From assembly GCA_021790935.1 (NCBI GenBank), contig JAJYFL010000002.1, positions 204,215 through 268,214 on the forward strand: a DNA stretch of 64,000 nucleotides. The letters are read 5' to 3'. The notes below the pieces were generated by a model. The model was not told where the DNA came from. It worked only from the letters and a program-made list of their open reading frames with translations, and ran no database searches. Positions 1 to 14,680 of the stretch are shown here, in pieces (position 1 is the stretch's first letter; each line of letters starts with the position of its first letter). Origin of the DNA: a bacterium. Its GTDB lineage: Bacteria; Vulcanimicrobiota; Vulcanimicrobiia; Vulcanimicrobiales; Vulcanimicrobiaceae. A program made the translations under genes and the position numbers.

Positions 1-289
1 TTAGCGCCTGGCGCCCCCAACGGTAGACCGGCCCGGCGTCCCCGGTCCAAAAGAACGGCGTGCCCGTTTCGTCGGTGACGGCGTAGGCCACCATTTGGGC
101 GCGGCGAGCCGTAAGCATATGGCGATAGCGGCGCCGGAAGAGCGCCGCCGCCGTGGCCCCGGAGAATCGGAGTTCGCCGACGGCGCCCGCCATCTCCAGG
201 GCGACGCGATGCCGGCCGCGGCGCCGCAGCAGCCGTAACTCGAGCGGAGGCAGCGCGATCGCTTCTAAGCTGCCGGCGTCGACGCGCAT
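1..289 (-). CDS. Partial protein of unknown function downstream of HprK-like kinase (3' end cut by window edge)
   Basis: An open minus-strand frame starts at ATG 289-287 and runs without a stop to the left edge, so about 96 residues are visible. It begins MRVDAGSLEAIALPPLEL and later reads AQMVAYAVTDETGTPFFW. The start lies 23 nt inside the 3' end of the HprK-like gene, which suggests translational coupling in one operon with the two small peptides upstream. The visible part has no catalytic motif that I can name. The pattern of a short beta-rich segment followed by 'TPFFW...GPVYRWG' resembles the N-terminal part of HprK-related proteins in RiPP and polysaccharide loci, but this is inference. 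The rest of the gene lies outside the window. Confidence 0.6.
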   Translation of the reverse strand, partial: MRVDAGSLEAIALPPLELRLLRRRGRHRVALEMAGAVGELRFSGATAAALFRRRYRHMLTARRAQMVAYAVTDETGTPFFWTGDAGPVYRWGRQAL

Positions 290-1173
290 CTGCAACTCTC
301 TACGGCCTCCAGGAGCGTGGCCGCGGCCTCTCCCGGATCGCCGATCTCCAGCCGGTAACATGTGGTGCGCGCGTACCGCTCGAGCAACCCCCAGATATCG
401 GCAGGCTGCAGGCGCGCGAAGAACGTCCGCGGCAGCACCTCGAGCATGCACTCGGCTGCCGAAATCTGGGTTAGGCGGGCAGCGCGGCCCGCGCTGCGGG
501 TCAAGAGCACGATGTGGCGCAGCGGTAGAGGCTCGGCCAAGACGCGTTCTCCGAAGGCATCGTGCGCGGCGATCAGGCGCCAGGCGTTCTTGTCGGCCGT
601 GGTCGCATGCAGCGCGGAGCGATCGAGCAGCGCTTGGAGCGCCGCGTCGCCGATCAGGCCGCGCGCTTCTTCGCGGACCATCAAGGTACGAGAAAAACCG
701 TGGACGCGTGCGGTCGAGCGTTCGACGAAGACGAACTCGTCGGCGTAGATTCGCGCACCGCGGCGCAGGCACTCGAGTGCGAGCGTGGTCTTGCCGGTTC
801 CGCTGGGAGCGCTCAAGAGGATCGCGCCGTCGCCGATGGCGAGGCCGGCTCCATAAAAAGTGTCGTGTGCCGGCAGGTGCCGGAAAGACGCTGCGAAGAG
901 CTCCGCCGCACCGTAAAACGCCGCCGCCAGCGGGTCGTCGTTTCCGTGAAGTGCGGGAATCGTTATCCGCCGGCCGTTGAAGAGCACGTGCGTCTCCGAG
1001 CCGGCGGAACAAACGATCTCGCCGTAATCGAGGTGGCCTCGCACCGGCGCGCTCGTGCGGAGATCCGCGTAGGCGTGCTCGAGATACGCGCCGACCTCGG
1101 AACGATCGTATCGCACGCACAGCGAGCGGTTGAGGAAGGTAAAGATCAGCGCCGCAGGTTTGCGCTTGCGCAT
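265..1173 (-). CDS. HprK-like P-loop kinase of a RiPP-type locus
   Basis: This 302-residue protein contains a Walker A motif, SAPSGTGKTTLA, at about residues 121-132, followed by an ARIYADE segment typical of HPr-kinase-like proteins. HprK homologues in RiPP loci are tailoring enzymes; the one of the paeninodin lasso-peptide cluster phosphorylates the precursor's C-terminal serine. I chose ATG 1173 because the longer frame to 1290 would run into precursor peptide B. A TTG at 1224 is an alternative, and neither has a strong Shine-Dalgarno site. The gene lies 55 nt downstream of precursor B and overlaps the next gene by 25 nt. The kinase-like fold is likely, but the substrate is not shown by sequence; peptide B ends in SRH and peptide A in an HG repeat. 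Confidence 0.72.
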   Translation of the reverse strand: MRKRKPAALIFTFLNRSLCVRYDRSEVGAYLEHAYADLRTSAPVRGHLDYGEIVCSAGSETHVLFNGRRITIPALHGNDDPLAAAFYGAAELFAASFRHLPAHDTFYGAGLAIGDGAILLSAPSGTGKTTLALECLRRGARIYADEFVFVERSTARVHGFSRTLMVREEARGLIGDAALQALLDRSALHATTADKNAWRLIAAHDAFGERVLAEPLPLRHIVLLTRSAGRAARLTQISAAECMLEVLPRTFFARLQPADIWGLLERYARTTCYRLEIGDPGEAAATLLEAVESCRCASTPAA

Positions 1174-1228: not shown

Positions 1229-1342
1229 TTAATGGCGGCTGTTGCCCGGCGAACCGGCAGTAACGCAGCTACCCGAGCCGACCGCTTCACCGAGCAGCTC
1301 CGCAGCTTCGAAGGTTGCGATGACCGCGGGTGGTTGGTACAT
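1229..1342 (-). CDS. RiPP precursor-like peptide B (37 aa, Cys/Ser/Gly tail)
   Basis: The 37-codon frame begins MYQPPAVIATFEAAELL and ends in a tail reading SCVTAGSPGNSRH. A strong Shine-Dalgarno sequence (AGGAGG, 5 nt before ATG) supports translation. Its first 25 residues align without gaps to peptide A just upstream (shared Y2, P5, AVI, TF, LL, EAVGSGS), while the tails differ completely. That is the usual pattern of a conserved leader and variable core. The Y-x-x-P motif followed by an aromatic-acidic pair (F11-E12) matches what is known of leaders bound by PqqD-like RRE domains in lasso-type pathways. If the core starts after the shared block, it has no Asp/Glu at positions 7-9, so a canonical lasso ring is not possible. 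The product class is unknown. Confidence 0.72.
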   Translation of the reverse strand: MYQPPAVIATFEAAELLGEAVGSGSCVTAGSPGNSRH

Positions 1343-1368
1343 AGGATCCTCCTGTCCGGCAGGTGCGT

Positions 1369-1473
1369 TCAATGGCCGTGGCCGTGGCCGTGGTGCGTGC
1401 TGCCCGATCCAACCGCCTCGGCTAGCAAGGCGCCTGCATCGAACGTCACGATGACGGCCGGTCTCTCGTACAT
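1369..1473 (-). CDS. RiPP precursor-like peptide A (34 aa, His-Gly tail)
   Basis: The frame reads MYERPAVIVTFDAG, continues ALLAEAVGSGS, and ends THHGHGHGH. It is preceded by TGGAGGA; two ATG codons are adjacent (1476-1474 and 1473-1471) and the second has the better spacing. The leader is a near copy of that in peptide B 26 nt downstream, with Y-x-x-P at residues 2-5 and F-D at 11-12. The tail alternates His and Gly and comes from a GGC-CAC codon repeat, a composition expected to bind metal ions. No Asp/Glu lies in the tail, so a lasso macrolactam is excluded if the core begins after the shared block. The downstream operon includes an HprK-like kinase. RRE and protease genes are found 10 kb away at 11.5-15.2 kb. 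Confidence 0.72.
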   Translation of the reverse strand: MYERPAVIVTFDAGALLAEAVGSGSTHHGHGHGH

Positions 1474-1705
1474 CATTCCTCCAGACGTCGTCCGATGATC
1501 CGAGGACGCTGCCCCGGGCCGGCGTTCCGGCTACTAACGATTTTATGGATTACGAGGGTGGGACCGGTAGTGGCGAACGACCCAATCCGCCCGAACATTG
1601 GTCCGTTATGTATGAAGTCTGTAAACTCACCGCTCCTTTCGTGCGGAGCGGGTACGATGCAGCCGAAACGTATCAGTGGGTACCGCGAATAGGGAGGGTA
1701 AATCG

Positions 1706-1897
1706 GTGTACTCCTCGATAGAGTGGATCGGCCGTTGCCACGGATGCGGCCGTTCCGCGAGCGTAAACGACGGCGAGATGCTTGCGCGCTCGCGGGTCGC
1801 GACGGCGCGTGCCACGCACTGCGAGCGCTGCGGCGCCCACATCGAACTGAACGTCAGCATCGCGCGGCTTCAGCGAGCGGGATTCTCCCGGAATTAG
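1706..1897 (+). CDS. Small zinc-ribbon-like protein
   Basis: A 63-residue frame starts at GTG 1706, preceded by AGGGAGG 6 nt upstream. It has two C-x-x-C pairs, CHGC and CERC, about 35 residues apart, which suggests a single zinc-binding ribbon. An upstream in-frame GTG at 1676 would add ten residues, but its ribosome site is weaker. The gene lies between the divergent RiPP peptides and the polysaccharide locus, in a stretch with no better candidate. Similar small zinc-ribbon proteins are common and mostly uncharacterised. It may be a real small gene or a chance frame in GC-rich DNA. Confidence 0.45.
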   Translation: MYSSIEWIGRCHGCGRSASVNDGEMLARSRVATARATHCERCGAHIELNVSIARLQRAGFSRN

Positions 1898-2072: not shown

Positions 2073-3527
2073 TTGAGTCTCACTTCCGCAGCCCTCGAAC
2101 TCGTTGCCGACCGCCGCGCGACCGGCGCGGGATCGCGCGGCGCACCGACGGAGTTTTCGCGCGTGTGGGTCGCGGCTCTCGTCTTCGGCGATCTCTGCAT
2201 GTTCGCCGTTTCGGCGGTTCTCGCTACCGCGATCGTCTTCCACCGTTGGGACGCGCTCTTCGCCGCGCGCGGCGAGCTGCTCTCGGCCAGCGTCTTCGTC
2301 GCATTATGGGTGGCGATCTTTGCCCGGCTCGGATTGTACGAGCGCGAATTTGCGCTCTCGGCAAAAGACGAACTCTATTTTACCGTGGCCGCACTTTCGC
2401 TTGGGATCGTTCCGCAGGCCGTGCTCTTCACCATCGTTCCTTCGATTTCGACGTCACGTGCAGTGCTGCTCTTCTCGGCGGCGATATCGGTCGTGACGGT
2501 CGGCGGTCTCCGCGCGCTGCAGCACGCGCTGCGAGGTGAGTTCGCGAGGCGCCGTCCGCTGCGGATTGCGCTCGTGGGGCGCTCCGACCGGATCGCCGGC
2601 GCAGGAGCGCGTATCGGCAAGCGTCATCATGGCGCGGAGATCATGTACGTGGCTGTCGACGACTTGGACGCGAGCATGGACGGACATCTCTTGAATATCT
2701 TCGGCGAGGCGAGCGGCATCGAATGGCTCGACCGAGCGCTGCAGTGGCGATGCGACGAGCTGATCCTCACGGAGATTCCACCCCCGCAGATCATCCCGTC
2801 GCTTTTGGCGCGGACCGAGGACCATGGCGTCCGCGTCGCTTTTGCTCCGCCTCGGATCCTCGCTCATGCCTACTCGCTGAAGCTGCAGCAGAACGGGCAG
2901 CAGGCGCTCATCGTCCCGTCGCAGTTGAGCGCGGCTCGTCCCTCCGCGCGGCTCCTCAAACGGCTCTTCGATTTCGGCCTCGCTCTGGTGGCCTCGATCG
3001 TCGTCTCCCCGGTGCTGCTGATCGCAGCGCTGGCCGTATGGATCGACTCCGGCCGGCCGATATTTTACGGTCAAGAACGCATCGGCCGGTACGGGCAGCC
3101 TTTCACGATCTTCAAGTTTCGGTCGATGCGGCTCGATGCGGAGGCCCAGAGCGGAGCCGTCTGGGCGCGCACCGACGACGCCCGCGTGACGCGCGTGGGA
3201 CGATGGCTGCGCCGCTTGAGCATCGACGAACTGCCGCAGTTGCTCAACGTTCTGCGCGGCGAGATGTCCATCGTCGGGCCGCGCCCCGAACGCCCGGCAT
3301 TCGTCGGCGCGTTTCGGGCCAAGGTCCCGCGCTACGACGAACGTCACCTGGTGCGTCCCGGCATTACGGGTTGGTCGCATGTGAACATGGAACGCATTCT
3401 GGACGCGTCCCAGATAGCCGATCGCCTGAGCTACGATCTGGCCTATGTAGAGAACTGGAGCCTCTTCCTCGACGTTTCGATCGTCCTCAAGACCGGCTTC
3501 GAGTTTCTGTTCCACCGCGCGGCCTAG
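2073..3527 (+). CDS. Polyprenyl-phosphate sugar-1-phosphate transferase (WcaJ/ExoY type)
   Basis: This 484-residue integral membrane enzyme should start polymer synthesis by moving a sugar-1-phosphate from a UDP-sugar to undecaprenyl phosphate. The N-terminal part has four to five hydrophobic segments and a CoA-binding-like nucleotide-fold region (about 160-280), as in long WcaJ-type enzymes. The catalytic bacterial sugar transferase domain starts near residue 296 (KRLFDFG) and contains GQERIG, FKFRSM, SIDELPQLLNVLRGEMS and VGPRPERP, all hallmarks of the family. TTG 2073 is the start, preceded by GAGG. It is the first gene of the plus-strand run that continues to 19.7 kb. The sugar specificity cannot be read from sequence. 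Confidence 0.9.
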   Translation: MSLTSAALELVADRRATGAGSRGAPTEFSRVWVAALVFGDLCMFAVSAVLATAIVFHRWDALFAARGELLSASVFVALWVAIFARLGLYEREFALSAKDELYFTVAALSLGIVPQAVLFTIVPSISTSRAVLLFSAAISVVTVGGLRALQHALRGEFARRRPLRIALVGRSDRIAGAGARIGKRHHGAEIMYVAVDDLDASMDGHLLNIFGEASGIEWLDRALQWRCDELILTEIPPPQIIPSLLARTEDHGVRVAFAPPRILAHAYSLKLQQNGQQALIVPSQLSAARPSARLLKRLFDFGLALVASIVVSPVLLIAALAVWIDSGRPIFYGQERIGRYGQPFTIFKFRSMRLDAEAQSGAVWARTDDARVTRVGRWLRRLSIDELPQLLNVLRGEMSIVGPRPERPAFVGAFRAKVPRYDERHLVRPGITGWSHVNMERILDASQIADRLSYDLAYVENWSLFLDVSIVLKTGFEFLFHRAA

Positions 3528-3537
3528 ATAGAAGGAT

Positions 3538-4761
3538 ATGAACGTCGCGCTCGTCTGCGTCTGCTTCCCGTACGGCGATAAGGAGCCGTATCTGGAGAGC
3601 GAGCTGGCCGGCCTGCGCCCGCATTTTGGGCGCATGGTGGTGATGCCCGTCGCTCCAGCCGCCCGGGCGCGCGGTTATCGAACCGCCGGCGCCGACGTGG
3701 TCGCACGGCCGCTCTTCTCGCTAGGCGTGCTGATCGCAGCGTTGCGGGAAGTGCGCCGCAACCCGGTCGCCGTAGCGCGCACGACCCTAACGCTCCTCGG
3801 CGCGCGCGGGCGGCCGGTCACCAAACTCAAGAATCTGGCGGTGCTGCCGAAGGCGCTGGCGCTCTGCCGAGAGGTCCGCGACCGCGGCGTCGATCACATC
3901 CACGCCTATTGGCTCTCGACGCCGGCCACGGTTGCCTACGTCATCTCGCGTTTGACCGGCATTCCCTGGAGTGCCAGCGCCCATCGCTGGGACATCTACG
4001 AGGAGAACGCCCTCGACGTCAAAGTGGCCAGCGCTCGTTTCGTGCGCGCGATCTCGCTGCGAGGACGCGACGATCTGCGCTCGCGCGTGCCGGCGGCCGT
4101 CGCCGATCGGATCGCGTGCGTTCCTCTGGGGATCCAGATACCCGTCGCCGGCGTGCGCCCGCATCCGAAACGCGGTTTCCTTTCGCTGCTGTGCGCGGCG
4201 GCGCTCGTCCCCGTCAAGGGACACGCTACGCTCATCGGGGCGCTCGCGACCGCACGCGAATCCGGAGTCGACGTGCGCTGCACCTTCGCGGGCGACGGTC
4301 TGCTGAGGACGGCCCTGCAGCGTGCCGTCGACGCGGCGGCGCTGGGCGGCGCCATACGATTCGACGGTCACGTTCCGCGCGCGCAGTTGCACCGGCGCAT
4401 GCTCGACGGCGAGTTCGACGCCGTCGTTCTCGCGAGCACGGAGCGGCCGGGCGGACTCATGGAAGGCATTCCCGCGGCTCTAATCGAGGCTATGGCGTTT
4501 GGGATCCCGGTGATCGCGACCGATTCCGGGAGCGTGCCCGAGTTGGTCGACGCGAGCACGGGGTGGCTGGTCAAGGCCGGCGATTCGCGCGCGCTGGCGG
4601 CGGCGATCGTCGCATTGGCGCGAGACGGAGGACTCGCGGCTTCTCGTTCGGCAGCCGCTCGCCGGCGTGTCGAGTGCCGGCACGACGTCCGCGCGGCGGC
4701 ACGCTCCATCGCCGCTCGCATCGACGAGGCGCAATTCGCTCACGAGAGGGTCCCCGCATGA
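3538..4761 (+). CDS. Glycosyltransferase family 4
   Basis: This 407-residue cytoplasmic GT-B enzyme has a C-terminal GT4 domain with the donor-binding pattern ERPGG-LMEGIPAALIEAMAFGIPVIATDSGSVPELV around residues 300-340, including the E-x7-E type acidic pair. The N-terminal half carries an HAYWLSTPATVAY acceptor-side segment typical of this group. ATG 3538 follows GAAGGA and lies 10 nt after the sugar transferase stop. The stop overlaps the next gene by 4 nt. It probably adds a sugar to the lipid-linked intermediate; donor and acceptor are unknown. Confidence 0.85.
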   Translation: MNVALVCVCFPYGDKEPYLESELAGLRPHFGRMVVMPVAPAARARGYRTAGADVVARPLFSLGVLIAALREVRRNPVAVARTTLTLLGARGRPVTKLKNLAVLPKALALCREVRDRGVDHIHAYWLSTPATVAYVISRLTGIPWSASAHRWDIYEENALDVKVASARFVRAISLRGRDDLRSRVPAAVADRIACVPLGIQIPVAGVRPHPKRGFLSLLCAAALVPVKGHATLIGALATARESGVDVRCTFAGDGLLRTALQRAVDAAALGGAIRFDGHVPRAQLHRRMLDGEFDAVVLASTERPGGLMEGIPAALIEAMAFGIPVIATDSGSVPELVDASTGWLVKAGDSRALAAAIVALARDGGLAASRSAAARRRVECRHDVRAAARSIAARIDEAQFAHERVPA

Positions 4762-6041
4762 AGATCTCCGTCGTTGGCTTGGGGTACATCGGTTTACCTA
4801 CGGGCGCGATGCTTGCTGAGGCCGGCCACGAGGTGTGCGGCTTCGACGTCAACGCGCAACTGCGGTCCAGGCTGTGCGCGGGTGATATCCCGGGTACGGA
4901 GCAGCCGGTCCGCGAGCTCGCGGCCAAGGCCATTGCGGAAGGGCGGATGCGCGTAAGCGAGCGGATCGAAAGCGCCGATGCCTACGTTATTTGCACGCCG
5001 ACCCCGACGATCGACAATCGGCCCGACCTACGCTTCGTCGAGGCTGCGGCCGCGGCCGTGGCGGCAGTGGCACGTCCCGGCGACTTGGTCGTCCTCGAAT
5101 CAACCGTTCCGCCAGGTACGACGGAGCGTATCGTCGGCAACGCGTTGCGGCGCGCCGGCAAGAAGCCCGACGAGTTTCGCATCGCGCACTGCCCCGAGCG
5201 CGTGATCCCCGGAAACATCGTCTACGAACTTCGTCATAACGCGCGCGTGATCGGCGGCCGGACCGCCGACGATGCGCGCTACGCGCGCGACCTCTACGCC
5301 TCCTTCGTCGACGGCGAGTTGATGCTCACCGACTGCACGACGGCCGAGCTCGTGAAGGTGGTCGAAAACACGTATCGCGACGTCAACATCGCGTTTGCCA
5401 ACGAGTTGGCGCTCCTGGCCGAAGAGCTCGGTGTCGACGTGTGGGAGACGATCGAACTCGCCAACAAGCATCCGCGCGTTAACATCCTGCGCCCGGGCCC
5501 CGGCGTCGGCGGCCACTGCATCCCTGTCGACCCGCATTTTCTTTCGAACGCCAACCCGTTCTCGACCGAGCTCATCCAGACCGCTCGCCGCGTGAACGAG
5601 CGCATGCCGCATCGCGTCGTGCGCCGGGTCGTGGAGTACGTTCCCGGCGAGCCGGCCGAAAAGAAGATCGTGCTGCTGGGGGCCGCCTATAAGGCCGATG
5701 TCGACGATGCGCGCGAGAGCCCGACCCAACGCGTCGAGGAGTTGTTACGCGAGCGCGGCTATCGAACGTGCGTCTACGATCCGCTCGTAACGTCGTTCAG
5801 CCGTCCGCTCTGCGCTAGCCTCGAGGAGGCGGTCGCAGGAGCCGATGCGCTGGTTCTGATGACCGACCATGCCGCCTTCCGGGCCGTCGAACCGGGGATG
5901 GCCGGCGGACTCATGCGCGGGCGCGTGCTGATCGACGCGCGCCGCTTCTTCGATGCCGAATCCTGGCGCGCGGCCGGCTTCACGACCTACGTGCTCGGCG
6001 CTCGCGCGAGCAGTTCGCTCGCAGACCTGGCGATGGCCTGA
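4758..6041 (+). CDS. wecC: UDP-N-acetyl-D-mannosamine dehydrogenase-type nucleotide-sugar dehydrogenase
   Basis: The 427-residue protein has the NAD-binding start VVGLGYIGLPTG, the middle-domain catalytic segment GPGVGGHCIPVDPHF (active-site Cys within GHC), and a C-terminal UDP-binding domain. WecC-type enzymes oxidise UDP-ManNAc to UDP-ManNAcA with two NAD+. The GHCIPVDP context and the VESTVPPGTT-type segment fit the ManNAc/GlcNAc branch better than UDP-glucose dehydrogenase. ATG 4758 overlaps the preceding stop (ATGA). It provides the uronic acid that the downstream C5-epimerase domain and uronate-dehydrogenase-like SDR may act on. The exact substrate is inferred. Confidence 0.85.
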   Translation: MKISVVGLGYIGLPTGAMLAEAGHEVCGFDVNAQLRSRLCAGDIPGTEQPVRELAAKAIAEGRMRVSERIESADAYVICTPTPTIDNRPDLRFVEAAAAAVAAVARPGDLVVLESTVPPGTTERIVGNALRRAGKKPDEFRIAHCPERVIPGNIVYELRHNARVIGGRTADDARYARDLYASFVDGELMLTDCTTAELVKVVENTYRDVNIAFANELALLAEELGVDVWETIELANKHPRVNILRPGPGVGGHCIPVDPHFLSNANPFSTELIQTARRVNERMPHRVVRRVVEYVPGEPAEKKIVLLGAAYKADVDDARESPTQRVEELLRERGYRTCVYDPLVTSFSRPLCASLEEAVAGADALVLMTDHAAFRAVEPGMAGGLMRGRVLIDARRFFDAESWRAAGFTTYVLGARASSSLADLAMA

Positions 6042-6046
6042 AGGTC

Positions 6047-8620
6047 ATGCTGCGCATCCTTGCCATCGTCGATTCCGGCGTGGTTCGCTCGCTCCACGCA
6101 CACCTCATCGAGGTTTTGCGCGGCTGCGAGAACGTCTCCGTTACGACGGTCGCGCCGAGCGTACCGCCGTACGAACGCACCTGGGTCGAGCGGCTTGCAT
6201 GCGCCGTCTTCGCAAAGGGCGCCCTTAAACGCGTCGCACTCGGAGGAGTCCGGACCGTGACCGACGTCGTTCCGGACGAATTGCCCGAGGCGGATCTCAT
6301 CGTCGACTTGCGCGAGGTGGCGAGCATGCAGCGGCCGCTGACCGCCAAATATGGAACGTGGTATCTATACAAAGGTCCGCTCCGCGAGCTGCCGTTCTTC
6401 GAGGAGATTCGCTCCGGCGGGCGTACCGTCGAGCTCGAGCTTCGTTCGCGCGATTGCGATGGGCGCGTCCTAACCCTGCGGAGCGGTCGCTTCCCCCTCT
6501 CCTATTCGTATTGCCGGACGCTGCACTCGGCGTGCGCGACGGCCGCAGCGTGGCTACGGGCCGACGTCGCCGCGCTCGTCGAACGGCCCGGCGCTCGGCC
6601 GCGCGGGCGAGTTGTGCGAAGCGTCGCGGAGCTCCGTCCCGTCGCGCTGCACGAGCTTCCGCTCTTCGCGTGGCGCCTGGCGGGCGCGTTTGCGCGCTTT
6701 GCATGGGAGTATTTTTTCACCGAGACGTCGTGGAACGTCGGCATCGCGCGGGGCGGTCCGAGCGATGCGGTCGATGCCGGTTACACCCCGGCGATTCGCT
6801 GGCTGCGCACCGATCGGCGCAGGGCGTTCTACGCCGATCCGTTCTACCTGCGCGAGGGCGAGCGCGAGTACGTGCTGTGCGAGACGCTTGCGAAGGGGTC
6901 GCGCGAAGGGATGATCGAGAGGCTCGAATTCGCGCGGGACGGGCGCATCCTCTCGCGCCGCACGCTGATCGCAGCGGGTTCGCACCTCTCGTATCCGTTC
7001 GTCCTGGAGCGCGGCGGTCGGCGCTACTGCATCCCCGAAAGCAACGCGGCGCGGCGCATCGTAGCGTACGCCGAGGGAGCCGACGGCAGTTGGGCGCCCG
7101 CAAAGACGCTGCTGGAAGAGATCGACGCCTGTGACAGCACGATCTTCGAGCACGAAGGCCGGTGGTGGCTTCTCTGCACCCGCCGGTCGACCGGTTCGAA
7201 TCTCAACCTGTATGCCTACTTTGCCGGCGATCCCTTGGGCCCGTGGACGCCTCACAAGGCCAATCCCATCAAGAGCGATATTGCGTCGGCACGTCCGGCG
7301 GGCGCCGTCTTCGCGCACGGCGGCTCGCTCTATCGTCCCGCGCAAAATTGCGCGCACGGTTACGGCGGCTCGGTCGTCCTCCACCGCATCGTCCGCCTCG
7401 ACGAGTTCGAGTTCGAGGAAGAGGCCGTGCGCACGTTCTCTCCGGATGCGATCTATCCGCACGGCTTGCACACGCTGAACTTCGGTGCGGACGATCTCGT
7501 GCTGGTTGACGGGAAGCGCACCTGGTTCTCGCTGGCGCTCGCCTTTCGGCAGGCCGCGCATCTCGTTCGGCGCCTCCGGGAGCGCCGGCGCAGGGCGAGC
7601 GTCCGGGATGCCGTTCCACCCAATCGCTGGCGCCAGCTTCACCTAGCCTTTCCGGCGAACTGGGACGAAAAGCGCGCGTATGTCCTGCCAGCGAGCGGAC
7701 CACCGGGGAGACTCGGCCCGTACTATATTCGCTGGTCCGCGTCTACCGGCGTGATGGGTGAGGACTGGGACGTCTGCCCCTTCGACCGCAGCGGCGTGCT
7801 CATGACGCTGCGCGGCGGTTTCTACCACCCGATCGATATCGCGCAGTTTGCGCTCCACCAGCACGCGCTCTACGCCGAGACCGGATCGACGCAGGCTCTG
7901 CAGCGCTTCTTGGCGCAGGCGCGCTGGCTGCGCGACAACCAGCGCGAGCGCGGCGCGATCGCGGGGTGCTACACGTTCGCGTTCCCATGGGAGAGATACG
8001 GGGCGCCGGTGGGATGGATCTCGGCGATGGCGCAGGGCGAAGCGATCTCCGTCTTGCTGCGAGCCGAGGAGATTGCGCCCGGCGAGGGCTATGGCTCGGC
8101 GGCGCGCCGCGCCGCCGAGCCGTTTCGTCACGAGATCCGCGAAGGCGGGGTGGTTTGGCGCAACGCGGCCGGCGATACGTTCTTCGAAGAGTGTTCGGTC
8201 GAGCCCGCCGCACATATCTTGAACGGCCATATCTTTGCGCTTTGGGGCATCTGGGAGCTGTCGCGGTACGATTCGGACGCGTGGCTCCACGAACTCGTCG
8301 GCGCGGGCACGGCGACCGTTCGCCGGCGGCTTCCACTCTACGATACCGGGTATTGGAGCAGATACAGCCTCCTGGAGACGCCGCGCGGCGGCCAGCATCT
8401 TGCGACGCTGAAATACCACGCGTTTCACATCTCGCAGCTGCGTGTGCTCGCAGGCATGACCGGAGATGCGTCCTTCGAGGTTACGGCCGACCGCTGGCAG
8501 GCGTACGCCGGGCGAAACGGTCACCGTACGCGCGTCATGCTGGCGACGGCGGTAAGTCTCGTCGATCGCTTCGTAACGCATGGCGATACGGTCCCCGGCG
8601 GAGCGCGGAGCATCGTGTGA
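6047..8620 (+). CDS. Large fusion: GINT1-N-like beta-propeller domain plus D-glucuronyl C5-epimerase domain
   Basis: This 857-residue protein has two recognisable parts. Residues about 225-500 (from ETSWNVGIARGG, through YADPFYLREG and the ESNAARRIVAY region) resemble the five-bladed GH43-like domain found at the N-terminus of plant GINT1 and in bacterial polysaccharide proteins. Residues about 560-850 match D-glucuronyl C5-epimerase: GGFYHPIDIAQFALHQH, FPWERYGAPVGWISAMAQGEA, YDTGYWSRYSL and YHAFHISQL. Such epimerases invert C5 of glucuronate in the polymer, as in heparosan. The first 220 residues look like a formyl-transfer-fold or GT-like segment I cannot name. The gene follows a uronic-acid-forming dehydrogenase, which supports epimerisation of a uronate residue. 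No signal peptide is visible. Confidence 0.78.
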   Translation: MLRILAIVDSGVVRSLHAHLIEVLRGCENVSVTTVAPSVPPYERTWVERLACAVFAKGALKRVALGGVRTVTDVVPDELPEADLIVDLREVASMQRPLTAKYGTWYLYKGPLRELPFFEEIRSGGRTVELELRSRDCDGRVLTLRSGRFPLSYSYCRTLHSACATAAAWLRADVAALVERPGARPRGRVVRSVAELRPVALHELPLFAWRLAGAFARFAWEYFFTETSWNVGIARGGPSDAVDAGYTPAIRWLRTDRRRAFYADPFYLREGEREYVLCETLAKGSREGMIERLEFARDGRILSRRTLIAAGSHLSYPFVLERGGRRYCIPESNAARRIVAYAEGADGSWAPAKTLLEEIDACDSTIFEHEGRWWLLCTRRSTGSNLNLYAYFAGDPLGPWTPHKANPIKSDIASARPAGAVFAHGGSLYRPAQNCAHGYGGSVVLHRIVRLDEFEFEEEAVRTFSPDAIYPHGLHTLNFGADDLVLVDGKRTWFSLALAFRQAAHLVRRLRERRRRASVRDAVPPNRWRQLHLAFPANWDEKRAYVLPASGPPGRLGPYYIRWSASTGVMGEDWDVCPFDRSGVLMTLRGGFYHPIDIAQFALHQHALYAETGSTQALQRFLAQARWLRDNQRERGAIAGCYTFAFPWERYGAPVGWISAMAQGEAISVLLRAEEIAPGEGYGSAARRAAEPFRHEIREGGVVWRNAAGDTFFEECSVEPAAHILNGHIFALWGIWELSRYDSDAWLHELVGAGTATVRRRLPLYDTGYWSRYSLLETPRGGQHLATLKYHAFHISQLRVLAGMTGDASFEVTADRWQAYAGRNGHRTRVMLATAVSLVDRFVTHGDTVPGGARSIV

Positions 8621-10026
8621 TGGGTTTCGCGAACGCCGCGGCGCGCCGTTCGCCGCTGGACGCGTTCTGGCTGGTAGCCGGCGTTCTCCTGAGCGTGGCC
8701 ATCGAACTGGTAGCCTGGAAACATGCGGCGTCGGGGACCGGCCGCGTGTCGTACGCGACGTACGCGCTCGCGCTCGCGCCGATCGGCGCGATCCTCGCCT
8801 ACCGCTGGCCGGTCCTCTTCCCATACGCGCTCTACGTCGTGCTCGTTCCGTTCAACACGCTGCTCTCGGTGAGCCAGCACGACACGATCACGAAGGTACT
8901 CGGGATGGCGTCTGCGGCCGCGTTGCTGTTTTGGGCCGTTCGCAACCGGACGCTCGTCATGCCGCCGCGAGCGCTGCTGCCGTGCGTCGCACTGGTCGCT
9001 TGGATGCTTGCGTCTTTGGCTTGGGCCCTCGACTACAAAGCGGGCTACGAAGAGTTGAAGACGATGTTTCAACTCGTCGTGCTGTTCGCGATCGTCGGCA
9101 GCTTTCCGAGCGGCCGGCGCGAATTTTCCATCGCCCTCTGGGCAACGGTCGCCGGGGGGCTCATCGCTGCGCTCTACGGCATCTGGGTCTTCCATCATCC
9201 GAACGCCCTCGAGCAGCAAGCGCAGCTCACCGACAACCGCCTGATGTTTCAAGTCGGCCGGTACAATCTCGACATCAACCTGTATGCCGACTCGTTGTTC
9301 TTGCCGCTGGGGATCCTAGCCATGACGTGGCTGCGCCTGCCCTTTGGGTGGCGCAAGGCCTTGACGCTGGCCGGCATCGGGACGCTCGTCGTCGCGATAT
9401 ACTTCGCCGCCTCGCGCGAAGCGTTGATCGGCGTCGTGGCGATGCTGCTGTATTTCGCCTGGAAGTCCCCGCACCGCAAGCAGCTCTTCATACCGCTGGG
9501 CCTGATCGTCGGCGGCTTCATGGCGATTCCCAACATGATGGAGCGTTTGAGCCAATCGGCGCAGACGGGAGGTGCGGGCCGCCTTTCCATTTGGCACGTC
9601 GGGCTCATCTCGTTTCTGCAGCACCCGCTCTTCGGAACCGGTGTAGGGAGCTTCGCTACCGCCTACGACGACAATTTCCTGAAGGTATTCCAGCGGTACT
9701 ATGCGGGTTGGAATCGCGCTCCGCATAATCTCTTCGTACACTACGGCGTCGAGAACGGCATCGTCGGCATTGCGATCGTGCTCGCGGTGTGGTACGCGAT
9801 GTTCCGCATGGTCCGCGTCGTCGGCAAGGAGCATCCGATGTACGAGATGCAGATCATGTTCTCCGGCATCTTCGTAGCGCTGTTCATCGGATCGATGTTC
9901 GTGGACCTATTCTCGCAGAAAGAGCTCTGGCTGGCGTTCTGTCTGGCCGCGCAGTACCGCGCCATGATGATGGTGGAGTCGCCGCGCCTCCGTTGGGAGC
10001 CGCCCGCGACGCGTGGCGTAACGTGA
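8620..10026 (+). CDS. O-antigen ligase/polymerase family membrane protein
   Basis: This 468-residue protein has about ten to twelve hydrophobic segments. The O-antigen ligase/Wzy-type large loop contains RLSIWHVGLISFLQHPLFG and the following GVGSF, with APHNLFVHYGVENG downstream; these are characteristic of the Wzy_C (RfaL-like) family. It should act at the periplasmic face, polymerising lipid-linked repeat units or ligating the polymer. ATG 8620 overlaps the preceding TGA by 1 nt, and the stop overlaps the next start. Polymerase and ligase roles cannot be separated by sequence; given the Wzx/Wzc context, polymerase is the better guess. Confidence 0.82.
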   Translation: MGFANAAARRSPLDAFWLVAGVLLSVAIELVAWKHAASGTGRVSYATYALALAPIGAILAYRWPVLFPYALYVVLVPFNTLLSVSQHDTITKVLGMASAAALLFWAVRNRTLVMPPRALLPCVALVAWMLASLAWALDYKAGYEELKTMFQLVVLFAIVGSFPSGRREFSIALWATVAGGLIAALYGIWVFHHPNALEQQAQLTDNRLMFQVGRYNLDINLYADSLFLPLGILAMTWLRLPFGWRKALTLAGIGTLVVAIYFAASREALIGVVAMLLYFAWKSPHRKQLFIPLGLIVGGFMAIPNMMERLSQSAQTGGAGRLSIWHVGLISFLQHPLFGTGVGSFATAYDDNFLKVFQRYYAGWNRAPHNLFVHYGVENGIVGIAIVLAVWYAMFRMVRVVGKEHPMYEMQIMFSGIFVALFIGSMFVDLFSQKELWLAFCLAAQYRAMMMVESPRLRWEPPATRGVT

Positions 10027-11339
10027 TGCGCTCTGCGGTGCTCGCGATCGCGGTTACGGCGGTCGTAGCCTTCGGCGGCTGCGCCGGCGTCCGCGCGGCC
10101 GCGCAGCCGCCCGCTCCCGCAGGGCCCATACCGGCGCACGTGATGACGTATCTGTACTACAGCGCGGCCAACCAGAACGAGGGCGTGCCGGCCGCCTATA
10201 TGGCGGCGCATGCCGATTTCATCGAGACGGATGCGACACACCCGGGGCTCGTGAGGGCGTTCAAAGCGGCCGGCGGGCGCTTCGCGGTAGCGTACACCGA
10301 CCCGACCTACGTGCCGTACTGCACGCCGCCGTTTGCGCCGCCGGCCGGACGCTGTGCCGGGCCGATCGGCAATCAGGTGCTGGCCGAATCGGCATGGCTG
10401 CACGGCTCCGATGGCCTGCGGCTGCGGCGCGGCGATGCCTACACGCATCAGTACCAAGAGATCCTGAATCCCGCTTCGGTCTACGCCCAAGCGGCCTACC
10501 ATAACTACACGCTGGGCCTGGCCGAGAGTTCGCCGATCGATTTCTTCTTTGCGGATGACTCCGGCAGCCCGCTCGACGGCCCCGACGGCACGCCGCACAG
10601 CGGTCTGTTCTACCGCTTTAACGGCGCTGCGACCGAGATCGCCGGTGCGCGCGCCTGGATCGATGGCGAAGATGCGCTCTTGAACGCTGCGGCGCGCCCG
10701 GTCATCATCAACGGCGGCGGTCCGGAAGGCGCGCCGGCCTACGGCGGCGCCTTCCTTCGCGATCCGAACGTGATCGGCCAGAACCATGAAGATTGTTTCA
10801 GCCAAGAGGGGAGTGCGGGCCTGATGTCCGCCCGCGACCGCGTGTGGCAGAAGATGGAGAACGGGCTGCTTGCCATCACCCGAATGCACGTCTACGCCAT
10901 CTGCATGATGAAGGGCCCGCCGACGCCGGCGAACCGGATCTACGCGCTGGCATCGTGGTGGTTGACATACGATCCGCACTGGTCGGTCGCCGCAACGGTC
11001 GTGCCCGCGCCCGACGGCCACTCCATCTTTCCGGAGTACGCCATCGTGCCGCGAGAGCCGGTGCAGACGATCGGCACGAATATCTCCACGCTACGGCAGG
11101 GGGGAGTCTACGTTCGGGAGTTCGCGGCCTGCTACCAGGACCGAGTTCCGATCGGGCGCTGCGCGGCGGTCGTCAATCCCAGCCCCGACGCGCCGTCCGC
11201 GATGCCGAGGCTGACGGTCGCTTACGGCCTGCACCTCGTTCTCGGAAGGCGCAGTGCCTTTGCGGGCGGTCGGGCCGCCTGGCAGGCCGGCGTTCCGGGG
11301 GTGCTTGCGCCGCTCAGCGCGCTCATCCTGCGGGAGTGA
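10026..11339 (+). CDS. Secreted protein, possibly a TIM-barrel glycoside hydrolase
   Basis: The 437-residue product has an N-terminal signal sequence (MRSAVLAIAVTAVVAFGG, then CAGVRAAA; a lipobox is possible around Cys 19-20). The mature part begins with HVMTYLYYSAANQNEG and contains acidic pairs such as DFFFADDSG and VIGQNHEDCF that could be catalytic. Overall it resembles putative glycosyl-hydrolase barrels of polysaccharide loci, but I do not recognise a named family. Its start overlaps the preceding gene stop, so it is in the same operon and may trim or modify the exported polymer. A gap of 141 nt separates it from the PqqD gene. Confidence 0.6.
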   Translation: MRSAVLAIAVTAVVAFGGCAGVRAAAQPPAPAGPIPAHVMTYLYYSAANQNEGVPAAYMAAHADFIETDATHPGLVRAFKAAGGRFAVAYTDPTYVPYCTPPFAPPAGRCAGPIGNQVLAESAWLHGSDGLRLRRGDAYTHQYQEILNPASVYAQAAYHNYTLGLAESSPIDFFFADDSGSPLDGPDGTPHSGLFYRFNGAATEIAGARAWIDGEDALLNAAARPVIINGGGPEGAPAYGGAFLRDPNVIGQNHEDCFSQEGSAGLMSARDRVWQKMENGLLAITRMHVYAICMMKGPPTPANRIYALASWWLTYDPHWSVAATVVPAPDGHSIFPEYAIVPREPVQTIGTNISTLRQGGVYVREFAACYQDRVPIGRCAAVVNPSPDAPSAMPRLTVAYGLHLVLGRRSAFAGGRAAWQAGVPGVLAPLSALILRE

Positions 11340-11420: not shown

Positions 11421-11480
11421 GAATCTACATTACGGAGCGCGCCGGACGCGCCCCACAGCGAAGGTCAAGGAGAGGCTTCT

Positions 11481-11888
11481 ATGCTCGCAGAGCGCGTGTT
11501 CGAAACGAGTTTCTCGCTCCAGCCCCACGTCGTGGCCACGGTCGTAGAGGATGGCGCGGTCCTGCTCGATCTGGAAACCAAGTATTTTTTTCAGTTGAAC
11601 GAGCCGGCTTGGGCCATCGTGCAGCTGTTCGAAGCCGGGGGCGCGAGCCAAGAGGCGATCGAGGAGACCTGCCGGTCCTGGGGCGCAACCGACGCCGATG
11701 TGCCTGGCGTTCGAGCACTGCTCAGCCGCCTGCACGAAGAACATCTCGTCGGCTCTGCGGAGTCGGAGGATCTCGTGCCGGCTCCGTTTCGCGGCCCCTG
11801 GAGTACGCCCACCATCGAGCGTCAAGCCGAACCGTTGCATACGCTCGTGACGAGCGCCTTCGACCCGAGCATTCCGCTCGCGGAATAG
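11481..11888 (+). CDS. PqqD-like RRE protein (RiPP recognition element)
   Basis: This 135-residue protein has the PqqD winged-helix fold signature: VVEDGAVLLDLETKYFFQLNEPAWAIVQLFE (two segments of a strand-turn-strand-helix) and a helical C-terminal half. PqqD-like RRE domains bind leader peptides of RiPP precursors and hand them to processing enzymes. AAGGAGAGG precedes ATG 11481. The tail after residue 105 contains WSTPTIERQ and ends FDPSIPLAE. The latter resembles the FDAGALLAE stretch of precursor peptide A at 1.4 kb. An HprK-like kinase follows 10 nt later, and B2 protease and NTP_transf_5 genes lie 3 kb downstream. No precursor gene is visible next to it, so the peptides at 1.2-1.5 kb are candidate partners. 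Confidence 0.85.
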   Translation: MLAERVFETSFSLQPHVVATVVEDGAVLLDLETKYFFQLNEPAWAIVQLFEAGGASQEAIEETCRSWGATDADVPGVRALLSRLHEEHLVGSAESEDLVPAPFRGPWSTPTIERQAEPLHTLVTSAFDPSIPLAE

Positions 11889-11898
11889 GAGCTGGTTT

Positions 11899-12894
11899 AT
11901 GCAAACCGCATCGCTCGAGTGTTCCGGCGATGTCCTGGATCTGACCGCAGGGCCGCTGCAAGTCGAACTATCTGCGAGCGACGCGGAGCTTCGCGACGCG
12001 GCACTCCAGTCGCTGGAACTCTTCGGCGTCCATTGGGCGCCGCCGTACCGGCGGGTGCGCATTCGCCTCGATCGCCGTGCGGTCGACAAACGAGCCGGTG
12101 GTTCGTTCCTCACCTGTGCCCGTATGAACGTCGACGCCTCCGAGGCGCTGGTCTTTGCGTCGACGATGTCGGGGATCTGTACGATCGGATTTTCGTTGCG
12201 GCATCTCGACACCTGGCAGATTTCGGCGCCGTGGACTGCGTTCACCGAACCCGTCGTCGGCGACATCGAAGATCTGCTTGGCTTGGCGCTGACCTTCGGC
12301 TGGCGACGTGAGGGATGGGTGCCGGTCCATGCGGCGGCGGTGGAGAAGGATGGCCGCTGCTTGATTCTATGCGCACCGTCCGGCGGCGGCAAGAGCACGA
12401 TGACGACCGCACTGATGCGCAACGGATGGCGCACGCTGGGCGACGACAAACTGCTGCTGCGGTGCGACGGCGGTACGCCCGTGCTGCATGCGCTACTCGC
12501 AACGTTCAACCTGCATCCGCAGACTACGCGCTGGTTTTCGGAGATCGGGGATCTCGAAGATCTCCAGCGGTATTCGGCCTGGACCGATAAACGGCGCGTT
12601 AGCGTCGACCGCATCGCGCCGGGCGCGAGCGCGGTGCGCGCTCGGCCGACGCACCTCGTGCGCCTGTCGCGCAATCCGGGTGGAAGCGGCGTCGCCGTTA
12701 GCCCCCTGCGCAAAGACGAGCTGCTGGCGACTTTGCTACGCCAGATCGTCGTACCGCGCCGTCCGGAGGTCGCGCGGCAAATCGTGGCGACCGCCGCCGC
12801 GACGGCAGCCGTAATGACGGGGCTCGACATCGCGGTCGGTGACGACGCCTACGAGGATTCGGCATGGCTGCGAAAGATCGAAGGGGCGCTGTGA
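11899..12894 (+). CDS. HprK-like P-loop kinase (second copy)
   Basis: The 331-residue protein has Walker A CAPSGGGKSTMTTAL at about residues 158-172 and the HprK-type GWRTLGDDKLLL segment just after. HprK relatives of this size occur next to PqqD-like proteins in many RiPP and polysaccharide loci. The ATG follows the PqqD stop by 10 nt with GGAG upstream, so the two are coupled. N-terminal 110 residues have no family that I can name. Substrate may be a precursor peptide or a carrier. It is only distantly like the kinase at 265-1173, so the two are not a recent duplication. Confidence 0.75.
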   Translation: MQTASLECSGDVLDLTAGPLQVELSASDAELRDAALQSLELFGVHWAPPYRRVRIRLDRRAVDKRAGGSFLTCARMNVDASEALVFASTMSGICTIGFSLRHLDTWQISAPWTAFTEPVVGDIEDLLGLALTFGWRREGWVPVHAAAVEKDGRCLILCAPSGGGKSTMTTALMRNGWRTLGDDKLLLRCDGGTPVLHALLATFNLHPQTTRWFSEIGDLEDLQRYSAWTDKRRVSVDRIAPGASAVRARPTHLVRLSRNPGGSGVAVSPLRKDELLATLLRQIVVPRRPEVARQIVATAAATAAVMTGLDIAVGDDAYEDSAWLRKIEGAL

Positions 12895-12896
12895 GC

Positions 12897-13799
12897 ATGG
12901 ACGCGATGCCGCTCGTGAGCGTGGTCGTGCCCGCATACAACGCGGCCGGGTCGATCGGCGAAACGCTCAACGCGCTGCGCGGCCAAGCCTACCGGCAGCC
13001 GTTTGAGATCATCGTCGTGGACAATGCCTCGACCGACGATACGGCTGCCGTAGCCGCATCGTACGGGGCGACCGTTCTGCGGGAACGCAAGCGCGGTCCC
13101 TCGGCCGCCCGAAATTGCGGGCTGCGTGCCGCGCGTGGCGAGATCGTCGCGCACCTGGACGCCGATACGCTTCCATCGCGTCGTTGGCTCCGGGATATCA
13201 CGGAGCCGTTCTCCGATCCCGACGTCCGGCTGGTCGCAGGCAACACGCTCTGCTACCCGCCGAAGACCGCGGCCGAGCGCTACGTGCAGGCCTCCAAACT
13301 GTACGATACCGAGCGCGCCATCAAACGCGAAGAGTTCCCGTTCGCCCCCTCGCTGAACTTGGCCGTTCGCAGATCCGCCGCGCTTGCAGTCGGCGGATGG
13401 GACGAAGATATGCCAACCGGCGAAGACGTCGATTTCTCGCATCGCATCTTGACGCGGTTCGCTACGAACATCGCGTACGCGCCTGGCGCCGTGCTCTACC
13501 ACCACACGCGGGCTGACGCTGGCGCGCTCTGCAAACAGGCGTGGACCTACGGCGAAGGTGCCGGGCAACTCTATCTGCGCTACCCCGACGAACTGCGCTG
13601 GGATGTCCGCAAGAGCGCGGTTCTGGCGATCCGCTTGCTGGACCGGTGCTCGCGCCCGCCGCTCTGCGCCCTCGGGCGCGCACTCGGCATCGTACCGGGC
13701 GAGCAACTCGAGTTCGTGCGATACCAAAGCCTTTGGGATCGTCATTTTTGGGCCGGCTTCTTCCATATGTATCTCCTGCGCCGGCGGCGGTTCACATGA
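12897..13799 (+). CDS. Glycosyltransferase family 2
   Basis: This 300-residue GT-A enzyme begins with the classic SVVVPAYNAAGSI and has DNASTDDT, AARNCGLRAARGE, the metal-binding-type HLDADT (D-x-D-like) near residue 95 and a GGWDEDMPTGEDVDF acceptor/catalytic segment around residue 165-180. ATG 12897 lies 2 nt after the HprK-like stop; an upstream ATG at 12864 would overlap that gene. The stop overlaps the next GT2 gene by 4 nt. It sits between RiPP-type genes, so its sugar acceptor could be either a lipid-linked glycan or a peptide; the first is more likely. Confidence 0.85.
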   Translation: MDAMPLVSVVVPAYNAAGSIGETLNALRGQAYRQPFEIIVVDNASTDDTAAVAASYGATVLRERKRGPSAARNCGLRAARGEIVAHLDADTLPSRRWLRDITEPFSDPDVRLVAGNTLCYPPKTAAERYVQASKLYDTERAIKREEFPFAPSLNLAVRRSAALAVGGWDEDMPTGEDVDFSHRILTRFATNIAYAPGAVLYHHTRADAGALCKQAWTYGEGAGQLYLRYPDELRWDVRKSAVLAIRLLDRCSRPPLCALGRALGIVPGEQLEFVRYQSLWDRHFWAGFFHMYLLRRRRFT

Positions 13800-14680
13800 A
13801 GGTCTCCGTGATCGTACCCGTCTACAACGGATCGGCGACGATCGAGGCGTGCGTGCGTGCCCTGCTCGAACAGTCCCTTTCCAAGGAATGCTACGAGATC
13901 GTCGTCGTCGACGATGGTTCGACCGATGCGACCGCCGAGATCGTGCAGCGTTACCCGGTGCGGCTGCTGCGCCGTCCCAACGGCGGCGCGCCTGCGGCGC
14001 GGAATACGGGCGTCGCGGCCGCAACCGGAACGTGGGTGGCTTTTACCGATGCCGACTGCGTTCCGTCACGTACGTGGCTCGCGCGTCTGCTCGACGCGGT
14101 CGAGCGGACGCCGAGCGACGTGCCGGCGCTGGGCGCTGCGGGCCGGATGATCGGTTTCGATTCGACGACGGACGCAGCGCGGTTCGTCGATATCAGCGGC
14201 GGCCTCGACGCGGAGCGCTACCTCGCGCATCCGACCTTTCCGTTCGCGCCATCGGGAAACCTGATGTATCGCCGCGACGCGCTCGTCGCCTCCGGCGGCT
14301 ACGACGAACGGTACGCAACCTACGACGCCTGCGATCTGCACACGCGCCTGCGCGCCATCGACCGCGGAGGCTTTCACTTCGCGAAGGCGGCCGTCGTGCT
14401 GCACCGGCAGCGCGCGACCTGGCGCCAGTACTGGAAGCAGCAGTTTTACTACGGCGTCGGTTACGCACAGTTCATGCTGCGCTGGCGCGACCGCGTGCGT
14501 TGGAACCCGCTGCGCGAGATCGCGGCGTTCGCCGGGGTCGTGCGCGATGGGATAGCGGCGTTGCTACCCGCGAAAGGTGACGAGGCGTTGCGCAGGCGGG
14601 GCGCATTCGTTCGCGCCGCGGCGCAGCACGCCGGGCGAATCGTAACGTATTACGATCCCGCGGAGCGCCGCCGGTGGTGA
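13796..14680 (+). CDS. Glycosyltransferase family 2 (second copy)
   Basis: The 294-residue product starts KVSVIVPVYNGSATI and has VVVDDGSTDATAEI, GAPAARNTGVAAATG, FTDADC and GGYDERYATYDACDL, all in GT2 order. It is clearly related to the preceding GT2 and probably arose from an old duplication. The C-terminal 60 residues are amphipathic and basic. The start overlaps the preceding stop (ATGA), and the stop overlaps the start of the B2-type gene by 7 nt. Role in the polymer is likely, with specificity unknown. Confidence 0.85.
   Translation: MKVSVIVPVYNGSATIEACVRALLEQSLSKECYEIVVVDDGSTDATAEIVQRYPVRLLRRPNGGAPAARNTGVAAATGTWVAFTDADCVPSRTWLARLLDAVERTPSDVPALGAAGRMIGFDSTTDAARFVDISGGLDAERYLAHPTFPFAPSGNLMYRRDALVASGGYDERYATYDACDLHTRLRAIDRGGFHFAKAAVVLHRQRATWRQYWKQQFYYGVGYAQFMLRWRDRVRWNPLREIAAFAGVVRDGIAALLPAKGDEALRRRGAFVRAAAQHAGRIVTYYDPAERRRW

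Follow-up and report, generated by a model that had tools for sequence, protein, structure and literature searches.

We have analyzed a pair of adjacent small genes in a 64,000-nucleotide stretch of DNA from a member of the Vulcanimicrobiaceae (assembly GCA_021790935.1, contig JAJYFL010000002.1); this whole stretch is called the window below. Together with genes for HprK-like kinases, a leader-binding protein, a signal peptidase joined to a nucleotidyltransferase and an exporter, the twins probably make small linear phosphorylated RiPPs that resemble the Linear Polyphosphorylated Peptides (LPP) of Bacillota. This reading follows from the gene content, the co-occurrence of precursor and peptidase across genomes, the conservation of the leader, the retention of catalytic motifs, the presence of serine in every tail counted and the precedent of gene deletions in Bacillota. 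The preliminary description of this DNA had suggested an undescribed RiPP class; that suggestion has been overtaken, since the same parts list was reported in May 2026 as LPP in Bacillota (PMC13381572).

The twin genes and their surroundings

The features of the twin genes are as follows.

1369..1473, minus strand: precursor A, 34 residues, MYERPAVIVTFDAGALLAEAVGSGSTHHGHGHGH; leader residues 1-22; predicted core (after residue 22) SGSTHHGHGHGH
1229..1342, minus strand: precursor B, 37 residues, MYQPPAVIATFEAAELLGEAVGSGSCVTAGSPGNSRH; leader residues 1-22; predicted core (after residue 22) SGSCVTAGSPGNSRH
1478..1482, minus strand: GGAGG, Shine-Dalgarno-like site serving precursor A, read from the sequence
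1348..1353, minus strand: AGGAGG, Shine-Dalgarno-like site serving precursor B, read from the sequence
1408..1410, minus strand: Gly22 codon of A, predicted to end the leader (A-x-G, position -1), placed by the loss of conservation and the (-3,-1) pattern
1277..1279, minus strand: Gly22 codon of B, predicted to end the leader (A-x-G), placed on the same basis as in A

Residues 1-25 of A and B align without gaps, and beyond GSGS the tails do not align. The earlier account of twin small genes with a shared 25-residue leader, unrelated tails and good Shine-Dalgarno sites was thus correct, also in its coordinates, with both genes on the minus strand. For precursor A the ATG at 1473 is favoured as the start over an in-frame ATG at 1476, which would give 35 residues, because of its spacing to GGAGG. 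Used as a query, B matched A in its own genome with an E-value of 5.8e-6. The precursor family has no entry in NCBIfam and gave a single match in Pfam, at chance level. Neither a sigma-70 promoter nor a terminator was found in a scan of positions 1-2200 of the window.

Between the leaders of A and B there are 14 synonymous differences on 17.0 sites and 8 nonsynonymous differences on 49.0 (pS 0.82, pN 0.16). The protein sequence of the leader has therefore been kept despite extensive change in its DNA, contrary to what a leader conserved as DNA only would show. The corresponding comparison in G002 gives 15 synonymous differences on 16.8 sites and 9 nonsynonymous on 49.2. Within the genus the B leader shows pS of 0.12-0.29 versus pN of 0.04, both from small numbers, and the A leaders of G000 and G002 differ by two nonsynonymous and no synonymous changes, too few for a judgement. 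In G001, a genome of the same genus, the copy of precursor A (L020:9300-9720) is without its leader and only the tail frame EAVGSGSTHHGHGHH is left. Precursor A looks dispensable, as judged from this loss of its leader in one of three genomes of the genus. The shortness of the ORFs and the degraded copy in G001 might suggest that the ORFs are spurious and that their similarity reflects a local DNA duplication. The pS and pN values of the twins, the Shine-Dalgarno sites and the recurrence of the family in 16 of 149 genomes, mostly beside the same genes, make this explanation extremely improbable.

The genes that accompany the precursors are listed here; some lie on the same contig just beyond the window.

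265..1173, minus strand: HprK2, an HprK-like kinase of 302 residues, assigned by NCBIfam, Pfam and AlphaFold2/Foldseek
1..289, minus strand: HprK1, the other HprK-like kinase (306 residues), of which only the first part is in the window; the gene continues past the left end
L003:7813-9510, minus strand: signal-peptidase/PF14907 nucleotidyltransferase fusion, same contig, just left of the window
L003:7517-7807, plus strand: PqqD1, same contig, outside the window
L003:6713-7513, plus strand: ABC-2 permease, same contig, outside the window
L003:5694-6716, plus strand: ABC ATPase, same contig, outside the window

HprK2 begins 55 nt downstream of precursor B, and its end is overlapped by HprK1 over 25 nt. 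Both kinases fall below the curated HprK cut-offs (42.2 and 32.0 bits versus 200). The match of HprK2 to NCBIfam HprK_rel_A (42.2 bits, cut-off 200) has an E-value of 5.2e-11, and its match to Pfam Hpr_kinase_C, at 23.1 bits, is also under the cut-off of that profile. A profile of both kinases matches HprK/P with an E-value of 2.8e-8, and the P-loop Lys and the Asp-Glu pair are invariant (9/9). The AlphaFold2 model of HprK2 has a pLDDT of 85.8; its best PDB match by Foldseek is a PEPCK (6asn, E 1.1e-7), followed by HprK/P (1kkl, E 3.3e-7). The PEPCK and HprK/P folds are related.

The fusion is the key protein of the operon, and it lies outside the DNA on which the preliminary description was based. 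Its nucleotidyltransferase domain matches PF14907 with an E-value of 6.1e-22. The peptidase domain is of the Sec11/SipW signal peptidase type, and its profile aligns the Ser, His and Gly-Asp motifs of human SEC11A (E 1.3e-4). In an alignment of 46 fusion proteins the catalytic-type Ser is kept in 41 of 42 rows that are not gapped there (the remaining row has Gly), while His65, Asp80 of the Gly-Asp motif and the Asp269-x-Asp271 motif of the nucleotidyltransferase are found in all 46. The AlphaFold2 model of the fusion has a pLDDT of 91.7. A Foldseek search of the PDB with this model gave no match below E 0.001; the best matches above that value were ANT(2'') nucleotidyltransferases, and SipA and LexA-type folds ranked lower. 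PqqD1, the permease and the ATPase are convergent to the fusion gene, and the exporter consists of a separate ABC-2 permease and a DrrA-like ATPase. Among solved structures the PqqD1 profile matches TfuB1 (6jx3) best (1.8e-11), then PqqC/D (9.6e-8) and LppB (9x8z, 0.063). Asn36 of PqqD1 is present in all 17 rows and Asp73 in all 16 type-1 rows.

Two further groups of genes lie on the other side of the twins.

2073..11339, plus strand: exopolysaccharide locus, divergent from the precursor operon and not claimed as part of the biosynthesis
11436-16283, plus strand: second cassette, in the order PqqD2, HprK3, two family-2 glycosyltransferases, B2 transglutaminase-like protein, PF14907 nucleotidyltransferase

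The exopolysaccharide locus has genes for a sugar transferase, a glycosyltransferase, a UDP-sugar dehydrogenase, a C5-epimerase fusion and a Wzy-type protein. An 857-residue protein of this locus (window positions 6047-8620, plus strand) combines a GINT1_N glycosyltransferase-like domain with a D-glucuronyl C5-epimerase domain. A 73-residue ORF with two CxxC pairs (1676-1897, plus strand) lies between this locus and the precursor operon; its match to the zinc-ribbon PF18073 is weak and below the cut-off (E 0.0016).

The second cassette contains no cyclase and no detectable precursor. Its gene order is the same in G050 and G099, partial on a cut contig in G109, and altered in G079 by the displacement of one glycosyltransferase. 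The precursor profiles had no match in G050, G079 and G099. When six second-cassette loci were searched for [YW]xxP ORFs preceded by a Shine-Dalgarno-like site, only one match was obtained, an in-frame internal piece of PqqD2. The preliminary description had counted a B2 gene among the neighbours of the leader. The only B2 match in the genome is 13 kb away, in this cassette, and we place B2 outside the precursor system because the cassette is a separate one and such cassettes recur without a precursor.

Distribution and anatomy of the precursor family

Searches with precursor B gave matches in 3 of 3 genomes of the genus and in 11 of 99 genomes of the family, the own genome included in both counts; the match in G016 (E 0.057) was not confirmed later. 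Profile A1, made of 14 precursors from similarity matches alone, matched 16 of 117 genomes of the class at E<=0.05, with the weak match of G111 among them. A broader profile, A4, was built partly from peptidase-bearing loci and matched 17 of 149 genomes of the phylum at E<=0.01; one of these matches (G114) is weak. The other 16 are below 1e-5. Homologous small genes do occur in relatives, where the shared leader with its variable tails is mostly accompanied by HprK and PqqD genes, as the preliminary description had anticipated.

The distribution of the peptidase domain follows that of the precursors closely. The peptidase profile matched 20 of the 149 genomes at 1e-5, of which 15 are below 1e-20; the weaker matches are G115 (6e-19), G113 (2e-18) and G126, G130 and G128 (between 7e-9 and 1e-5). 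The 16 genomes with an A4 precursor match (E<1e-5) include all 15 with a peptidase match below 1e-20 (Fisher p 1e-19, with thresholds chosen after seeing the matches and genomes treated as independent). A fairer count is given by profile A1 at E<=0.05, which recovers 14 of the 15 strong peptidase genomes and misses G058, first found by position. In the sixteenth precursor genome, G108, the fusion gene is cut at a contig end. Of the three weakest peptidase genomes two were inspected: a search of the G126 stretch for Y-x-x-P ORFs of the expected pattern gave none, and G130 has one of 22 residues on the opposite strand, which was left out of the counts.

The set of genes is found in more than one genus, and the following counts refer to the stretches examined around the 15 strong loci. 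PqqD is found in 14 (it is missing on the 7.5-kb contig of G112), the ABC exporter pair in 13 and both kinase paralogues in 10. Fusion of peptidase and nucleotidyltransferase is seen in 14 of these loci, and in G091 the peptidase stands alone. In 13 of 17 genomes a precursor directly precedes a kinase gene in the same orientation, as the nearest ORF seen on its upstream side. The exceptions are G001, which is split by contig ends, G085, where the precursor is divergent beside PqqD, and G113 and G115, where the ORFs are upstream of PqqD. These last two genomes carry twins of a different type, Y-x-x-P ORFs with lengths of 36 and about 42 residues (G115, L145:6470-6720; G113, L146:9025-9260). They are flanked by an ABC-2 permease and PqqD, and after these come matches of HprK-like and stand-alone signal-peptidase-like type. 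The G113 and G115 loci are a more distant branch.

Some genomes carry several precursors. There are seven matches in G109 and five in G058, several of them on contigs apart from the maturation genes. G006, G058 and G109 have precursors with no maturation genes in the examined stretch; for a further copy in G108 the contig is too short to tell. Since several precursors sit away from the maturation genes, the peptides may be modified in trans.

A scan of named genomes for the peptidase domain, with one narrow pattern, gave 6 loci: three from Candidatus Eremiobacterota, two labelled 'bacterium' and one labelled 'Proteobacteria bacterium'; a single-pattern scan of this kind says little about other phyla. 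Plasmid records gave no match to the peptidase domain. A protein search with the fusion gave at least 49 matches among the best 7,998 candidates. Three of them carry an organism name, all of Vulcanimicrobiota type. Over the protein searches with precursor and fusion, the organism names met were Candidatus Aquilonibacter, Vulcanimicrobiaceae and Candidatus Velthaea, the first of which the taxonomy assigns to Vulcanimicrobiota. Vulcanimicrobiota is the newer name of the Eremiobacterota phylum.

Protein searches for the precursors themselves gave 44 and 43 matches. Counted from Y-x-x-P onward, there are 82 unique precursors, of which genomes supplied 30 and the protein searches 52; the G113 and G115 twins, which were located by position and had no profile match, are excluded. 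The leader consensus is Y-x-x-P-x-[VI]-x-x-[TS]-x-D-A...L..A-x-G. Tyr1 and Pro4 are present in 82 of 82 precursors, but they were used to place the rows and are no independent result. With Tyr as position 1, 77 of 82 have Asp or Glu at position 11, and 73 each have Ala at 19 and Gly at 21; these counts include one row (P0043) out of register. Past position 21 the column entropy rises from 0.73 to above 3 bits. Ala or Val at -3 is combined with Gly, Ala or Ser at -1 in 77 of the 82 precursors, the exceptions being G061 and four precursors that end in A-E-T. Signal peptidases favour small residues at (-3,-1). We infer that the leader is removed after A-x-G, and the cut is predicted to fall after Gly22 in the twins because conservation drops there and the (-3,-1) pattern is so widespread.

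The tails are most often 12 or 13 residues long (range 5 to 20), and the median precursor length is 36 residues. Ser is present in all 82 tails; shared ancestry inflates this and every other residue count over the 82 precursors. After clustering of the tails at 40% identity, Ser is found in 44 of 44, where composition predicts 7.1 tails without it; only 2 of 20,000 residue shuffles left no Ser-free tail. Gly, the next commonest residue counted, is present in 32 of the 44 clustered tails. Ser is at +3 in 26 of the 82 tails and at +1 in 25, so the counts do not single out one universal site; in both twins Ser25 is core position +3. A G-x-G-S string occurs at the boundary or in the tail in 42 of 82.

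The tail of A is rich in His, Cys is present in 49 of 82 tails and 18 of 82 end in His. From these residues one could suppose metal-binding or regulatory peptides that are in the operon by chance, with the kinases acting on something else. We consider this quite improbable, since it is Ser that is universal in the tails, and not His or Cys; in addition, the leader suits RRE binding and ends at a protease-like boundary, and precursor and peptidase co-occur almost perfectly.

The preliminary description had also compared the leader to the RRE-bound leaders of lasso peptides while observing that the tails have no acid to form a ring. Both the Y-x-x-P leader of the PqqD/RRE type and the lack of an Asp or Glu ring acid in the twins stand, and lasso peptides as such are rejected. 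Such peptides, made by a cyclase that was overlooked, would fit the lasso-type Y-x-x-P of the leader and the lasso RRE TfuB1 as the best solved match of the PqqD profile, and paeninodin-type lasso clusters also carry HprK and a nucleotidyltransferase (PMC8498205). However, the own genome (98.78% complete) has no match to the cyclase profile PF00733, versus 11 of 14 control genomes. Of the 82 precursors, 8 have an acid at core positions 7-9, the twins not among them, and none has Thr at -2; the operon is also without B2, the only match to which is in the other cassette. With the cyclase and the ring acid missing and B2 elsewhere, we regard a lasso peptide as highly improbable.

A proposed pathway and its significance

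In the pathway that we propose, the PqqD-type protein would bind the Y-x-x-P of the leader, and one or both HprK-like kinases would phosphorylate a core Ser, in the twins most likely Ser25 at +3. The signal-peptidase domain would then remove the leader after A-x-G, the nucleotidyltransferase domain of the fusion would cap or glycosylate the phosphate, and the ABC-2 pump would export a product of 12 to 15 residues. The nucleotidyltransferase step is modelled on pseudomycoidin, in which such an enzyme adds a hexose to the phosphate (PMC8498205), because deletion of lppN, the NTP transferase gene of LPP, had no visible effect in Bacillota (PMC13381572).

The phosphorylated and capped peptides could also be acceptors or primers that become attached to the exopolysaccharide of the adjacent locus, rather than free products. 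The operon diverges from this locus, homologues of the sugar transferase or UDP-sugar dehydrogenase occur in the examined stretch of 8 of 17 genomes, and LPP clusters are likewise embedded in capsule loci (PMC13381572). On the other hand, the remaining 9 stretches have no such homologue, ABC exporter genes are present in 13 of the 15 strong loci, and unlinked copies of the precursor lie away from the exopolysaccharide locus. We therefore think an acceptor role unlikely and favour exported phosphopeptides.

A broader proposal can be put forward tentatively, as a possibility that we would not bet on. Eremiobacterota may have an independently assembled class of phosphopeptides, in which a protease and nucleotidyltransferase in one polypeptide would cut the leader and cap the (poly)phosphorylated Ser in a single assembly; a few maturation genes would serve up to seven dispersed precursors per genome in trans, and the resulting sugar-phosphate peptides of 12 to 15 residues would decorate or regulate exopolysaccharide. 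If an independent class does exist in Candidatus Eremiobacterota, it would be the first such system outside Bacillota. Linear RiPPs processed by a signal peptidase and modified by a kinase were reported only in 2026 and were called restricted to Bacillota (PMC13381572). The presence of the parts list in a distant phylum, with another leader, a fused protease-nucleotidyltransferase and precursors of ~36 residues, suggests either a wider design or two origins. Its short precursors and small gene set make this a convenient system for the role of the nucleotidyltransferase, and it is also suited to studying the function of phosphopeptides whose genes neighbour polysaccharide loci.

Comparison with known systems

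The HPr-rel-A system (TIGR04352/TIGR04353) likewise combines an HprK-related kinase with a PqqD-family protein, and PqqD1 reaches 34.9 bits against a cut-off of 35; the kinases, in contrast, stay at 42.2 and 32.0 bits against 200. Another point of comparison is found within the phylum, as Candidatus Eudoremicrobiaceae belongs to Eremiobacterota. Phospeptin, from Candidatus Eudoremicrobiaceae, is a linear phosphorylated RiPP, as is proposed here, and the paper that describes it mentions Eremiobacterota (Paoli et al. 2022, PMC9259500). Its maturation is of another type: the sole maturase is lanthipeptide-dehydratase-like, Thr is the site seen by NMR, and the available part of that paper mentions no HprK, RRE or signal peptidase.

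Lasso peptides of the paeninodin and pseudomycoidin type share more components with the present system. They have an HprK-like kinase acting on Ser and a discrete RRE, and in several cases their nucleotidyltransferase is fused to the B2 leader peptidase (PMC8498205). Here too the nucleotidyltransferase is fused to a peptidase, although the partner is a signal-peptidase domain instead of B2. Unlike those clusters, the operon has no cyclase and no B2, and its precursors have neither a ring acid nor Thr at -2.

The closest counterpart is LPP, known from the lpp cluster of Paenibacillus alginolyticus, of the Bacillota (Popov et al. 2026, PMC13381572). This cluster comprises an RRE, an HprK-like kinase, a SipW-like leader peptidase, an NTP transferase and an exporter, with no cyclase, and one to three precursors of 35-200 residues that are conserved at the N-terminus and variable at the C-terminus. 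Gene deletion indicated that the kinase puts phosphates on core Ser+3, and deletion of the peptidase gene stopped leader removal. In the crystal structure of LppB, N33 and D70 hold the leader; equivalents of these residues are shared by many lasso and PQQ RREs (PMC13381572). As for the range of LPP, the discussion of the paper has 'restricted to Bacillota', while in its results most members of the main peptidase cluster come from Bacillota. Neither Eremiobacter nor Vulcanimicrob occurs as a word in its main text, and among the open-access journal articles listed by our literature searches we found no report of this precursor family in Eremiobacterota.

The two systems differ in several respects. 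The host of the present one is not a member of Bacillota. The peptidase is fused to the nucleotidyltransferase (14 of the 15 strong loci) and there are two kinase paralogues (10 of 15); the exporter is of the ABC-2 (DrrA/DrrB-like) type, whereas that of LPP is MsbA-like. The leader lacks the HQ and FET parts of the LPP motif YxxPxVLxHQxIxFETxxS, and it mostly ends in A-x-G where LPP ends in F-E-T, which is why the cut after A-x-G is given as a prediction only. Unlinked extra precursors occur here, and the precursors are short, with a median of 36 residues versus 35-200 in LPP. The RRE profile is also far nearer to the lasso RRE TfuB1 (1.8e-11) than to LppB (9x8z, 0.063), and such scores by themselves give it no place in the LPP clade of the RRE tree.

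The likenesses, however, extend over the whole parts list: a discrete PqqD-type RRE, an HprK-like kinase, a signal peptidase of the archaeal/SipW type, an NTP transferase of the PF14907 type and an ABC exporter, with no macrolactam cyclase (tested in the own genome only). Both systems have a YxxPx[VI] leader, precursors with a conserved N-terminus and a variable C-terminus, and polysaccharide loci as neighbours. N36 and D73 of PqqD1 match N33 and D70 of LppB, with the same gap of 37 residues, and Ser25 of both twins is at core +3, the position that is phosphorylated in LPP. By analogy, the system described here likely works as LPP does, as its relative either by divergent descent or by convergence.
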